NCBI GenBank assembly: GCA_026414165.1
Contig: JAOAJN010000004.1
Coordinates: 62,001 to 126,000 of the forward strand
Origin: Candidatus Methanomethylicaceae archaeon
Lineage (GTDB): Archaea; Thermoproteota; Methanomethylicia; Methanomethylicales; Methanomethylicaceae
Direction: 5' to 3'
Length of the DNA stretch: 64,000 bases
Shown: positions 48,819 through 54,241 of the stretch, piece after piece
Layout of the letters: every line of letters starts with the position of its first letter
Numbering within the stretch: the first letter of the stretch is position 1
The notes under the pieces: generated by a model
The model's database searches: none
Told to the model about the DNA's origin: nothing
Seen by the model: only the letters and a program-made list of their open reading frames with translations
Program-made: the position numbers and the translations under genes

Positions 48819-50759
48819 ATGGAAAAACCTTCCAGGAAAGTAGACATAACAGTAGCGCTCGTGGGCAACCCGAACGTAGGAAAGAGTTCGCTGTTTAACA
48901 GTCTGACGGGTCTAAATCAGTCGGTCGGCAACTGGCCCGGCAAGACCGTGGAAGTGGCAGAGGGCACCTTAGCTTACAAGGAAATAAAGATCAAGGTGGT
49001 GGACCTGCCTGGTACCTATTCCCTAACATCGTTCTCTGAGGAGGAAGTCGTAACCAGGGACTACATTCTCTCTGGCGAGGCTGATGTGATAATCAATGTA
49101 ATTGATGCGACGGCACTCGAGAGAAATCTCTTTCTTACCCTCCAACTTATGGAGATGAATGCCCCCCTGATTATTGCCTTGAATATGGTCGACGAAGCTA
49201 CCAAAAAAGGCATTGAGATCCGAGTTGATAGACTTTCAGAGCTCTTGGGCGTACCTGTAATACCAATAGTCGCAACTTCTGGTTTTGGTCTAACTGAACT
49301 GATGGAAGCTGTCTTGGCAAGACCTACCAAGAGTCGCCGTCTCACCTATGGTAGGGAGGTGGAGGCATATATCTCCCAAACCTCCCGCCACCTTCAGAAT
49401 ATTGAGGCGCCCTACCCCTTGGACTGGATCTCAATAAAGGTTCTAGAAGGCGATCCAATAATAACATCTCTTTTCCTGAAAGACAAACAAATCTCGGAAA
49501 AGATCGCCTCAGTAATGAAGACTATGGAAGATCTTCATGGAGAGCCGCCTTCAGTTATCATATCCTCTGAAAGGTATGCCCTATCACACCGCATTGCCCA
49601 GCAAGTCACGATATCCCATGCGAAGCCTGCGATATCCTTTGACGAACGTATAGACGGGCTCCTATCCCACAAAGTGGTCGGCTACTTGATCCTTTTAATG
49701 ACACTTTCGGGAGTGTTTCTTATAATCTTCTCCGCGGGCAGCTATCTCTCCGCTTACATAGATGGACTTTTTGTTTGGATGATTGAAACCATTCGACCGC
49801 ACCTTCAGGTATTGGATCCCACATTATCCTCACTTTTATTGGATGGCATACTCTTCGGTCTGGGTGCTGCCACCTCAATTGCACTTCCATACGTGGCCCT
49901 GTTTTACCTATTATTGTCGATATTGGAAGATACAGGTTATCTGCCAAGGGCTGCATTTCTTCTCGACTCGCTTATGCACAAGATAGGACTCCACGGCAAA
50001 GCATTCATACCAATGCTATTGGGTTACGGATGCAGCGTGCCCGCTTGCATAGGATGCAGGATCATGGAAACCAAAAGAGAGCGCCTTCTCCTAGGCGCCT
50101 TGGTTGTACTGATACCTTGCTCAGCTAGGACTGTAGTTATTCTAGGTGTGGCTGGCTCATATTTGGGTCCTCTTGTGGCTCTCTCAATATACGCACTTGA
50201 CCTGCTAATAGTCTTCTCGCTTGGGAGACTACTTTTCAAAGTCCTGCCAGAAGAGCCTGTGGGTCTCATAATGGAAATGCCTCCGCTTAGAATGTTTCGC
50301 ATAGCTACAGTTCTCAAGAAGACGTGGGTCAAGACCAAGGACTTCGTTTACATAGCTCTGCCGCTGATAGTCCTCGGATCACTCGTAGTCTCATTGGCCT
50401 CTTCCCTGAAGTTGGTTGATCTGATCGTCAATGGAATTTCGCCAATCACCGTCGGGTTAATGGGCTTGCCCGTTGCCACAGGTATCGCTTTTATATTCGG
50501 CTTTCTCAGGAAGGAGCTAGCCCTGATAATGTTGGCCACATATGTCGGCACAACCGACTTCTCCGTCTTCATGACGCCTGCTCAGATGATCATCTTCGCA
50601 CTTGTGATGGTCCTATACATACCTTGTATAGCAACCCTCTCGGCACTGATTAAAGAGTACGGCTTGAAGAATGCGCTTGCTATCACTCTGATGGACATAG
50701 CAATAGCGCTTTTTATTGGCAGCTTTGGAATCAGGATCCTTATGGCTTTAGGGCTCTAA
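48819..50759 (+). CDS. feoB: Ferrous iron transporter FeoB
   Basis: 646 aa. N-terminal G domain with GNPNVGKSSLFNSLTG, switch I/TVEVAEGT, DLPGTYSL and NMVD; then membrane Gate domains with about 9 helices, including the conserved LLGYGCSVPACIGCRIMETKRERL and FGFLRKELALIML. ATG 48819 follows GAGGGGGG; the track adds five codons. It transports Fe2+ into the cytosol. It ends with a 20-base overlap with the convergent HIT gene. Confidence 0.95.
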   Translation: MEKPSRKVDITVALVGNPNVGKSSLFNSLTGLNQSVGNWPGKTVEVAEGTLAYKEIKIKVVDLPGTYSLTSFSEEEVVTRDYILSGEADVIINVIDATALERNLFLTLQLMEMNAPLIIALNMVDEATKKGIEIRVDRLSELLGVPVIPIVATSGFGLTELMEAVLARPTKSRRLTYGREVEAYISQTSRHLQNIEAPYPLDWISIKVLEGDPIITSLFLKDKQISEKIASVMKTMEDLHGEPPSVIISSERYALSHRIAQQVTISHAKPAISFDERIDGLLSHKVVGYLILLMTLSGVFLIIFSAGSYLSAYIDGLFVWMIETIRPHLQVLDPTLSSLLLDGILFGLGAATSIALPYVALFYLLLSILEDTGYLPRAAFLLDSLMHKIGLHGKAFIPMLLGYGCSVPACIGCRIMETKRERLLLGALVVLIPCSARTVVILGVAGSYLGPLVALSIYALDLLIVFSLGRLLFKVLPEEPVGLIMEMPPLRMFRIATVLKKTWVKTKDFVYIALPLIVLGSLVVSLASSLKLVDLIVNGISPITVGLMGLPVATGIAFIFGFLRKELALIMLATYVGTTDFSVFMTPAQMIIFALVMVLYIPCIATLSALIKEYGLKNALAITLMDIAIALFIGSFGIRILMALGL

Positions 50760-51225
50760 TACCATCTCGCATCTTCCTGTATGTTTCTTCCAAGTGCTCT
50801 GGCATTACCTTGGTATCAGATAAGACCGGCATGAAGTTTGTATCTCCATTCCACCTTGGCACTACGTGTAGGTGTATATGATCGTATCCCGCACCTGCCG
50901 CCCTGCCCACATTGAATCCTATATTGAACCCTTCAGGAGACATCGCCCTCTTCAGAACAGTTAAGCTATCCCTCAGAAGTTCAAAGATCTCCTCCCACTC
51001 CACTTCAGCCAAGTCCTCAATATTTTTGACATGTCTATAGGGCGCTATCATCAAGTGACCTGTATTGTAAGGGTATTTGTTCAGCATTCCAAAGACTCTG
51101 CCTCTTCTCTCAAAAATCAGATTCTTGGCATCTTCATTCTCCTTGGGCTTCTCACAAAAGATGCAGGTGTCCTTCTTATCCTCCACAATAAAAGTCAGCC
51201 TCCAAGGAGCCCAGAGATTCTTCAA
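50740..51225 (-). CDS. HIT-family nucleotide hydrolase/transferase
   Basis: 161 aa. The HIT motif HIHLHVVPRW and the preceding GFNIGFNVGRAAGAGYDH, plus CIFC near the N-terminus, match the HIT subfamily related to AP4A phosphorylase/adenylylsulfate enzymes (NLWAPWR start). The start is TTG with GGAGGATC 5 bases upstream. It ends the minus-strand operon that includes a symporter, a JAMM protease and a LAGLIDADG-like protein. Confidence 0.92.
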   Translation of the reverse strand: MKNLWAPWRLTFIVEDKKDTCIFCEKPKENEDAKNLIFERRGRVFGMLNKYPYNTGHLMIAPYRHVKNIEDLAEVEWEEIFELLRDSLTVLKRAMSPEGFNIGFNVGRAAGAGYDHIHLHVVPRWNGDTNFMPVLSDTKVMPEHLEETYRKMRDGIRALKP

Positions 51226-51238
51226 CCGTAGATCCTCC

Positions 51239-52231
51239 TTAACCGAGCATCAGTCTGTTCAAGTAAACCTTTAACTCATCATCGTAGCTGAGCTCTCTTA
51301 TCTTCTTTATGGCCTCGACTTTTGTGGAAAACCTAAAACTCGTGGCATTTATCAGAGACGCAAGTAAGAGGTTCTTTTCAATGCCTGCAAACTCTCCCCT
51401 CTTAACTTTGGTCCCTTCCAAAAATCCGCCCAGATCTGTGAATCCCCTCATAGTATTCAAATCTGAAGTTGCCAAGTATCCCTTACCATCGTATCTCTTA
51501 TCTTGGTAAATGCTAAATTCTAGACCTACATCGCACATAAGTTTCGAATAATCAGAGAGCATATTGCTTGGGAGTACTGCACCAATACCGAGTTTTGGAT
51601 AAGCCCTCAGACCGCAAGTAGTATTAACGAACGAACAGGAGATCCACCCGCTCGTGGACATTAAAATCCTTGAAGCCTCGACCTTTACGTCCGCTCCCCC
51701 CTCTAGAATGAAAGAGAGTGATGGCTCCCCCCCAAGGCGAGTCTCAAATTCAGGAGAGAACTCTCTGAGCTCTCTGACTGCTTCTTTACTATAAAGCTGG
51801 GTAACATAGCTCCCTCGCGCACCTGTCGTCCCAGGTCTTGTGTTATAGATCACATATGCAAGATCTGCAAAGATCGTGTGAAGCACAAGATCTTTGCCGT
51901 AAAATCTTATGCAATACTTGCCTCCTTCTGAATAGACTGACCCTCCGGATGCAACCATGCCCAGGAAGAGCCTCTTGAGGTCCGACTTGGAAAACCCTCT
52001 CTTCATCAACCCCTTAACGTAGGGGCTAGCAAGCCCTGCTATCCCTGTCAATATTAAGAGGAAGTTCAAAGGCATAATCGCCAATAAAGGCGACTGAAAG
52101 ATCAATACTCCCTCTGGTCCACAAATCCCCTGCGACTCACCATAACTAGAAATTAGAGTGTATACAATATTTGCAGAAGCACCCAGTACAAAAGCAACAC
52201 TTATGGCGTTAAAATACTCATTCGGGCGCAA
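51239..52231 (-). CDS. Membrane-anchored protein with degenerate LAGLIDADG fold
   Basis: 330 aa. Two N-terminal helices (SVAFVLGASANIVYTLISSYG and SPLLAIMPLNFLLILTGIAGL) precede a region laid out like a two-motif LAGLIDADG homing endonuclease: DLKRLFLGMVASGGSVYSE (first motif), SYVTQLYSKEAVRELREFSPEF, ASRILMSTSGWISCSF (second motif) and YLATSDLNTMRGFTDLGGFLEGTKVKRGE. The acidic residue expected near the end of each motif is Gly or Ser, so DNA cleavage is unlikely. It may be a domesticated, membrane-tethered DNA-binding or sensory protein. The start is TTG with GGAG upstream; no intron or intein surrounds it. Confidence 0.62.
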   Translation of the reverse strand: MRPNEYFNAISVAFVLGASANIVYTLISSYGESQGICGPEGVLIFQSPLLAIMPLNFLLILTGIAGLASPYVKGLMKRGFSKSDLKRLFLGMVASGGSVYSEGGKYCIRFYGKDLVLHTIFADLAYVIYNTRPGTTGARGSYVTQLYSKEAVRELREFSPEFETRLGGEPSLSFILEGGADVKVEASRILMSTSGWISCSFVNTTCGLRAYPKLGIGAVLPSNMLSDYSKLMCDVGLEFSIYQDKRYDGKGYLATSDLNTMRGFTDLGGFLEGTKVKRGEFAGIEKNLLLASLINATSFRFSTKVEAIKKIRELSYDDELKVYLNRLMLG

Positions 52232-52243
52232 ATGCTATCTCCT

Positions 52244-52621
52244 CTACTTGATCTCATGAGGTACCTTTTGTGCTTTGCTATTGTAGACGGCTAAATTCGA
52301 TTCGTCGTAAGGGTAGGCGACAATCATCATGATCCTTCCATAAAAATTGTTGAGGTCTTCCGTGGATGGAGCATTATTTCCGCTCGGATGGGAATGGGCT
52401 ATCCCAATGATGGTCAAATCAAACGGGATCATATGTATGGGAAAACCCGAGAACCCCTCACCATAGGTTGAAAATGGCGGTATGAGAAACTCCGTCACCT
52501 CGGCATAATTTCCCTTTACCTTGCCCCTGATTAACATAATATTCTCTCTCGGGTGCACGTCTTTGCAGATCTCCAAGAATAGAGAGACTGCCTCTCTGTC
52601 TAAGTATACCTTCTCTATCAA
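52244..52621 (-). CDS. JAMM/MPN metalloprotease-like protein
   Basis: 125 aa. The zinc motif IIGIAHSHPSGNNAPSTEDLNNF is a complete JAMM signature (HxHP...S..D), with the upstream Glu in the first strand region. Archaeal JAMM proteins cleave ubiquitin-like or sulfur-carrier tags. Its TTG overlaps the symporter stop (TTGA) and the LAGLIDADG-like gene follows after 12 bases, so all three are coupled. Confidence 0.9.
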   Translation of the reverse strand: MIEKVYLDREAVSLFLEICKDVHPRENIMLIRGKVKGNYAEVTEFLIPPFSTYGEGFSGFPIHMIPFDLTIIGIAHSHPSGNNAPSTEDLNNFYGRIMMIVAYPYDESNLAVYNSKAQKVPHEIK

Positions 52622-54069
52622 ACCTCTTCGCCCCCCACACCTAAAAACACCTCTATTCCTTCTGGTCCTCTTTCAAAGGAAGCCGTTAGAGTGTAAACAA
52701 CTGTTGATACGATTATAGTCCATGCATTCATTGGGAGTCCGAGGGGAGTCATTTTGGTGAAGTACAGCGCAATTGCCACTGAAAACCCTGAGATCAAAGT
52801 CAATATGGCAGACGCCCTCCCTCCCCTCTTCCATACAAACATGCCTAGCACTATGGGTGCCTGGGGGAGGAGAAGAGAAGAGGATAGCACAGCCAGATCG
52901 ACGATGAATCCAGGTCTAGCCAGCGCAAAGGCAGTACATGCCAGTGCCAAAACGCCTAATGTAGCCCTACCAACCAAAAGCTTCAGGCGGGTTGATCCAG
53001 GTCTGTAGCTTTCGTATATGTCTCTTGCCGCCATGGAACTCAATGTCAGCAGAATGCCGTCTATAGTTGAAACCGAAGCTGCCAGCACCGCTACGATCCC
53101 AAATACTCCAATCCACAATGGCGCCATTCCTAGTAAGGTCGGAGTGACCGAGTCCCTATAAGAAACTAGGGGAAACAAGCCGTTAACCGTGAGCCCCCTG
53201 AGCATAAGTCCCAATAGAGTTACCAATACTGTGAAGAGTAGCCCATAAGCCCCAAACCAAATGATCATAGACTTTAGAGTCTTAGAGTCCTTTGGTGAGA
53301 AGAGCCTTTGCACGACCTGCGGGTTTGTGACGGCAAAAAAGAACCAAGGGATAGTCATGTTGAGGAACGTAGAAAATGACCAGTATGGGTTTGGCACGTA
53401 GGATAAGGACCCTAATGATGTAAAATCAAAACCTCTTCCTTCGTATCCCCATGAATAAACCCACAAGACCATCAAAAACCCGGTGAATAACATTATCAGT
53501 CCCTGAAAGACATCTGTCCATCCAACGCTCCACATCCCTGCTATTAAGGACCAGATTAGCGCCACAATAATTGCAATTATCACGGCTGGAACATAAGGTA
53601 TGGCTCCCCCACTTGCACCCTCCGCTGCCATAGCTACTCCTATGACTTGGGAAGATGCGTAGGGTATGAGTGATATAAGCGCCAAGACTGTTACCGCTGC
53701 ACCCACTTCCCTGCCCCCGTAGCGGGCACTTAAAATCTCTGCAGGCGAGACATATCCGTACCTTTTATGGAGATTCCAGTATCTCGGAGCAATGAAATAA
53801 AGTAGTAGCAGAGTTCCTACAAAATAGACTAGCTCGAATCCCAGCGCCCCTACGCCTGTTGTGTACGCGAGCCCGACGAGCCCTATAAACATGAACGCAC
53901 TGTAGGTCGTGGCAGCATACGAGAGTGTTGCCAATAGAGTACCGAACCTTCCGCTTGCGGTGTAGAAATCCTTGAAGTCCTTCTTTAGATATTTTTTAGA
54001 GAAGAATGCTATCGCGCTACCGACTCCAAGGTATATCAGTATAGAGACGTAAACTGATATCTGATCCAT
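52618..54069 (-). CDS. Sodium:solute symporter (SSS family), second copy
   Basis: 483 aa, about 13 helices. DFYTASGRFGTLLATLSYAATTYSAFMFIGLVGLAY, VGWTDVFQGLIMLF and AASVSTIDGILLTLSSMAARDIYESYRPG mark the family. ATG 54069 lies 4 bases after the stop of a small membrane gene whose end supplies GGAGGT. It differs clearly from the 40.6-kb symporter. Substrate unknown. Confidence 0.92.
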   Translation of the reverse strand: MDQISVYVSILIYLGVGSAIAFFSKKYLKKDFKDFYTASGRFGTLLATLSYAATTYSAFMFIGLVGLAYTTGVGALGFELVYFVGTLLLLYFIAPRYWNLHKRYGYVSPAEILSARYGGREVGAAVTVLALISLIPYASSQVIGVAMAAEGASGGAIPYVPAVIIAIIVALIWSLIAGMWSVGWTDVFQGLIMLFTGFLMVLWVYSWGYEGRGFDFTSLGSLSYVPNPYWSFSTFLNMTIPWFFFAVTNPQVVQRLFSPKDSKTLKSMIIWFGAYGLLFTVLVTLLGLMLRGLTVNGLFPLVSYRDSVTPTLLGMAPLWIGVFGIVAVLAASVSTIDGILLTLSSMAARDIYESYRPGSTRLKLLVGRATLGVLALACTAFALARPGFIVDLAVLSSSLLLPQAPIVLGMFVWKRGGRASAILTLISGFSVAIALYFTKMTPLGLPMNAWTIIVSTVVYTLTASFERGPEGIEVFLGVGGEEV

Positions 54070-54073
54070 CTCT

Positions 54074-54241
54074 TTACCTCCGCATCGAAATTGCAACAAA
54101 TATCAGATAAGCGACCGATATTCCCGTCCAGAAAATGAATGTCAGAGGTCCCTCAATTCCGTTGAGCAACCCATAGGGAATGAAGTACATGAGAAGAACC
54201 ACTATCACGGAAAGTAAAAGAAAGAGCTTTTTTTCAATCAT
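54074..54241 (-). CDS. Small membrane partner of the second symporter, 55 aa
   Basis: Not in the ORF track because of its length. It reads MIEKKLFLLLSVIVVLLMYF, continues through IPYGLLNGIEGPLTFIFW to a second helix TGISVAYLIFVAISM and ends in RR. The layout (helix, short polar loop with a GxxG/P turn, helix, basic end) parallels the 77-aa protein before the first symporter. DUF3311-like small subunits of SSS transporters are the closest known analogues. Its stop is 4 bases before the symporter ATG. Confidence 0.75.
   Translation of the reverse strand: MIEKKLFLLLSVIVVLLMYFIPYGLLNGIEGPLTFIFWTGISVAYLIFVAISMRR

Follow-up and report, generated by a model that had tools for sequence, protein, structure and literature searches.

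The locus on the reverse strand at 51239..52231 of the window (the whole stretch of 64,000 nucleotides that was analysed) raises the question of what a membrane-anchored protein with a degenerate LAGLIDADG fold, here termed LAG, may do in an archaeal cell. Its open reading frame of 330 amino acids was confirmed as a real gene of a Methanomethylicota archaeon, based on 17 orthologues, an AlphaFold2 (AF2) model compared by Foldseek, and a dN/dS ratio of about 0.1. The start codon is TTG, with AGGAG about 7 nt upstream, and adjoins the stop codon of the JAB gene. Indeed, LAG is part of a tight cluster SSF–JAB–LAG–HIT, in which gaps of 12-13 bp separate it from JAB and HIT. Directly upstream, in all syntenic genomes, lies a gene for a JAB/JAMM-type metalloprotease (Prok-JAB; 52244..52621, reverse strand; Pfam E 5.4e-8), and directly downstream a HIT-family gene (50740..51225, reverse strand; Pfam E 4.7e-12, and synteny). 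The upstream part of the cluster is a sodium:solute symporter gene (SSF; 52618..54099, reverse strand; Pfam E 6e-33), which precedes JAB-LAG-HIT in the genera g1, g2 and g7; its place is taken by TFB in g5 and g6. Upstream of the cluster, a promoter-like block is conserved, in which nothing was assignable.

Some further features of the neighbourhood were recorded. JAB is probably an active JAMM-type protease, since its zinc-site motif HSHPSGNNAPSTED is kept; in the relative G115, a gene for an Mrp/NUBPL-type ATPase precedes JAB instead. A small hydrophobic open reading frame of 55 amino acids (54074-54241, reverse strand; MIEKKLFLLLSVIVVLLMYFIPYG...) lies directly upstream of the symporter gene, is kept in four genomes of the genus and possibly encodes a small symporter subunit.

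Membrane anchor and predicted fold

Sequence-only searches with the window protein gave no significant match in Pfam or NCBIfam and no meaningful one in PDB, the best PDB match being an SMR transporter (E 0.42) that was matched through a hydrophobic segment. The two transmembrane helices that the preliminary description had placed ahead of the fold were recovered within residues 3-70 (52022..52225, reverse strand) by hydropathy, with peaks at residues 9-27 and 42-67 (KD 1.9-2.2), by AF2, with helices at 3-29 and 48-66, and by alignment. The second membrane helix is weak in genus g2, where its hydropathy does not reach the threshold of 1.6. In the window protein, the helices are joined by an acidic loop that contains Cys37 and neither K nor R, and the segment following helix 2 is rich in K/R. 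By the positive-inside rule, this distribution indicates that the LAG domain would be cytoplasmic, with a probable N-in/C-in topology. Hydropathy, AF2 and the positive-inside pattern are concordant for the predicted membrane helices and a putative cytoplasmic domain.

An AF2 model built with 19 sequences (pLDDT 83.4, pTM 0.77) displayed, after the membrane helices, two LAGLIDADG repeats. Repeat 1 (residues 82-159; 51755..51988, reverse strand), with motif FLGMVASGGSVY, has the order H82-96, E97-102, E105-112, H115-129, E134-138, E141-147 and H149-158. Repeat 2 (residues 180-266; 51434..51694, reverse strand), with motif LMSTSGWIS, has the order H180-194, E195-204, E207-221, H222-234, E240-243, E250-255 and H258-266. 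The alpha-beta-beta-alpha-beta-beta-alpha core, whose absence from a predicted structure had been named as fatal to the proposed fold, is thus present twice in the expected order, and Foldseek was concordant: among the PDB matches listed, 50 of 50 are LAGLIDADG proteins. The best of these is I-Tsp061I, an enzyme from an archaeal intron (E 4.7e-8; TM 0.63, normalised to target length), followed by E-DreI, I-SmaMI, inteins, WhiA (rank 9), I-OnuI variants and I-DmoI. No signal was obtained when the two repeats were compared directly with each other. The repeats are followed by a C-terminal tail (51242..51433, reverse strand) that was modelled as three helices; alignment and profile comparison identified in it the motif GGFLEGTKVKRGEFAGIEKNLLL, common with relatives in 16S rRNA genes, and a conserved end RLMLG. 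This end, in the form R[LI][MI]LG (51242-51256, reverse strand), is shared by every full-length orthologue (37-82% identity) but absent from the paralogue L022.

Relatives and likely source

An orthologue search of 398 genomes of the phylum retrieved clear LAG orthologues only in the same family, namely in 17 of the 21 other genomes and five of the seven genera, with 37-82% identity. A scan of genome contigs gave same-genus copies only, scans of viral and phage sequences with the single LAG protein gave no relative, and a PDB search with the family profile A2 gave no match. The paralogue L022 (L062:6899-7807, genome G193; ~36%) is a divergent copy beside another symporter gene, outside the JAB-HIT cluster; it lacks strong membrane helices, and its catalytic positions carry Lys and Asn. 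Among three weak single-sequence matches, L019 (a reading frame on the strand opposite an ABC transporter) and L020 (an unrelated membrane protein) appeared spurious and were rejected; L021 is a real relative, located in an rRNA gene.

Searching with the family profile reached two further groups. The first consists of three proteins with intact motifs from another family of the phylum (L045:1183-2121, L046:1123-2046 and L048:1141-2055; ~305-313 amino acids), in which an N-terminal region of unknown type is fused to intact repeats (LMGMIASDGS and FFSGDGNVS in L045). The second comprises four open reading frames in 16S rRNA (SSU rRNA) genes (L047, L049, L050 and L052); a stretch GFLxGAKAVRGRHxGxEKNxLL in L047, L049 and L050 is shared with GFLEGTKVKRGEFAGIEKNLLL of the window protein, L052 having a looser version. 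In a Pfam scan of five of the seven relatives, L045, L046, L047 and L052 scored above the cut-off of LAGLIDADG_3 and L050 just below it. Among the LAG orthologues, this model alone gave just E 0.05 in L016, below the cut-off. Profile comparison by hhalign, the E-values of which refer to single comparisons and not to database searches, aligned residues 87-296, covering both repeats, with all seven relatives (prob 98.8, E 4.8e-17), and gave E 8.2e-9 with L045/L046/L048 alone and E 2.7e-7 with L047/L049/L050 alone, the latter match spanning the end of the second repeat and the tail. All 17 controls (15 neighbouring gene families and two reversed profiles) remained at prob <= 3.5. With its duplicated core and this profile relationship to known members, LAG belongs to the LAGLIDADG fold superfamily, and its likely source, as judged from these similarities, is among archaeal rRNA-intron-type or LAGLIDADG_3 enzymes.

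Some LAGLIDADG proteins are maturases, and the relatives of LAG include intron open reading frames in rRNA genes. This would fit a descent of LAG from a LAGLIDADG maturase, with a role at the membrane in RNA binding or RNA maturation. However, no RNA target or intron is linked to LAG, and a membrane location would be unusual for such a role, making this explanation improbable.

Loss of catalytic acids and maintenance of the gene

The preliminary description had recognised both motifs with Gly and Ser at the catalytic sites, which agrees with the alignment to intact relatives. Indeed, FLGMVASGGSVY aligns with LMGMIASDGSN, so that the catalytic D corresponds to G96, and LMSTSGWIS aligns with FFSGDGNVS, so that it corresponds to S194. 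Both acids are gone in the window protein and in most orthologues. As to whether they are always lost among homologues, this holds for repeat 1, where G, S or C is found in all 18 sequences covering the site (motif 1 of g6, LFGIIDTSC, can still be recognised as LAGLIDADG despite substitution of its final D and G), but not for repeat 2, where S, A, G or T is found except in the genera g5 and g6, with E, E, E and D in L007, L011, L012 and L016, respectively. The state of g5 and g6, with a dead repeat 1 and Glu/Asp in repeat 2, is a possible domestication intermediate.

Nearly all genomes retain JAB, LAG and HIT in this order, HIT having moved in L060, and the grouping in the LAG tree follows genus. 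Genera g3 and g4 do not contain LAG; their JAB and HIT genes are adjacent, with a gap of ~80-90 bp that leaves no room for it. The key node for distinguishing gene loss from original absence in these genera has a support of 0.516. Together with neighbours that are complete open reading frames, the adjacency in g3 and g4 is in line with the earlier statement that no intron or intein surrounds LAG. Within the window's genus, five of six pairs had a dN/dS of 0.09-0.11 in the LAG domain, the closest pair being at 0.19; elsewhere, the ratio was 0.09-0.23 for the whole gene. No internal stops were found in any clear orthologue. LAG thus looks like a vertically inherited host gene, neither decaying nor mobile.

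These data bear on two explanations. An active homing endonuclease has an acid ending each LAGLIDADG helix and is encoded by an intron or intein, or is otherwise mobile; LAG lacks the repeat 1 acid throughout and the repeat 2 acid outside g5 and g6, and is a free-standing gene in a tight cluster with fixed synteny. Continued cleaving or nicking, at least in g5 and g6, would draw on the E or D at the repeat 2 position in L007, L011, L012 and L016, but it is very improbable given the absence of the repeat 1 acid from every orthologue (G/S/C), the loss of both acids in the genus of the window, and the lack of any hint of mobility (synteny is fixed, and the tree follows genus) or of an intron or intein. 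Similarly, the loss of catalytic acids and the absence of LAG from g3 and g4 could be expected of a free-standing gene that once encoded a homing endonuclease and is now decaying. This explanation was rejected as hardly credible, since the dN/dS of ~0.1 contradicts it; in addition, the gene is kept without internal stops across five genera at 37-82% identity.

Putative role and comparison with known systems

Conservation in LAG is highest at the strand whose I-CreI equivalent contacts DNA. The face of strand beta-2 formed by K105, C107, R109 and Y111 is 98.6% conserved, versus 46.6% for residues 1-70; presumably, these four residues match DNA-contacting strand positions of I-CreI, in a by-eye alignment. 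In addition, the LAG domain is basic (pI ~9). A conserved beta-2 face, a basic domain and a predicted cytoplasmic placement together suggest nucleic-acid binding at the membrane without cutting. Hence, a homing endonuclease with two LAGLIDADG repeats, of the LAGLIDADG_3 or rRNA-intron type found in archaea, may have been captured between JAB and HIT in an ancestor within the Methanomethylicota, have gained two N-terminal membrane helices and have lost its active-site acids. It would now be a host gene, holding a basic, non-cleaving domain on the cytoplasmic face of the membrane, where LAG may bind nucleic acid via its conserved beta-sheet and either regulate transcription while tethered to the membrane or anchor DNA. 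The favoured reading, considered fairly probable, is that LAG was domesticated from an archaeal intron-type enzyme and, tethered to the membrane and no longer cleaving, binds nucleic acid as a regulator or anchor. Against this reading, the second membrane helix is weak in g2, and the neighbours JAB, HIT and the symporter do not point to one pathway.

The main rival, because of the precedent of WhiA, is that the LAG domain no longer binds DNA and instead docks another protein, which it would present at the membrane. In WhiA, the LAGLIDADG part is without catalytic residues and its DNA-binding surface is altered; alone, it gives no footprint on DNA, and it may mediate contacts between proteins (PMC3781837). 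DNA binding is thus not a given for a LAGLIDADG domain that has degenerated. Structures of WhiA in complexes with RNA polymerase rank high among the PDB fold matches; furthermore, the conserved RLMLG end and the Cys37 loop could be contact sites, and TFB is adjacent in g5 and g6. However, the strand that corresponds to the DNA-contacting one is the most conserved, its basic residues K105 and R109 included, and the pI of the domain is ~9, so that docking is considered rather unlikely.

To our knowledge, few domesticated LAGLIDADG proteins have been described (WhiA and HO), and no description was found in the open-access literature of membrane-anchored or domesticated transmembrane LAGLIDADG proteins, or of LAGLIDADG proteins in Methanomethylicota. 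If the favoured reading is true, LAG would represent a separate, non-cleaving archaeal domestication on the membrane, showing that an enzyme of selfish introns can turn into a host factor bound to the membrane, and would be a candidate for linking membrane and chromosome in an archaeal group that has received little study. A more specific proposal, that LAG is a hitherto undescribed family, domesticated from archaeal intron-type endonucleases independently of WhiA, which couples the archaeal membrane directly to specific chromosomal DNA sites, is plausible but tentative. The contrast at repeat 2 between Glu/Asp in g5 and g6 and Ser/Ala/Gly/Thr elsewhere offers possible intermediates in living lineages, opening the order of loss to study.

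Since 16S intron endonucleases (PMC4496867), WhiA and HO are already known, the new element of LAG is its predicted membrane tethering. The archaeal rRNA-intron homing endonucleases (I-Tsp061I, I-PogI and I-DmoI type; LAGLIDADG_3) have the same two-repeat fold and provide the top PDB match; their relatives in 16S rRNA genes, L047, L049 and L050, have the C-terminal GFLEG.K..RG...G.EKN..L in common with LAG. In contrast to these enzymes, LAG is not in an intron, has lost the acids, has added two membrane helices and occupies a fixed chromosomal position. Like LAG, WhiA (DUF199) is a host gene product with a domesticated LAGLIDADG fold that has lost its catalytic residues. LAG differs in being archaeal and membrane-anchored, without a detected HTH domain and without a sequence match to the WhiA model; in Pfam, neither HTH nor WhiA models matched any family member, even with E-values of up to 5 admitted, and the absence of an HTH domain suggests a domestication separate from that of WhiA. 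The yeast HO endonuclease is likewise well described as a domesticated LAGLIDADG protein (PMC7282813). Unlike LAG, HO still cuts DNA, is not membrane-anchored and is eukaryotic. Membrane-tethered one-component regulators of the CadC/ToxR type combine a membrane anchor with a cytoplasmic nucleic-acid-binding domain, a winged helix; the working principle proposed for LAG is alike, whereas the fold is unrelated.
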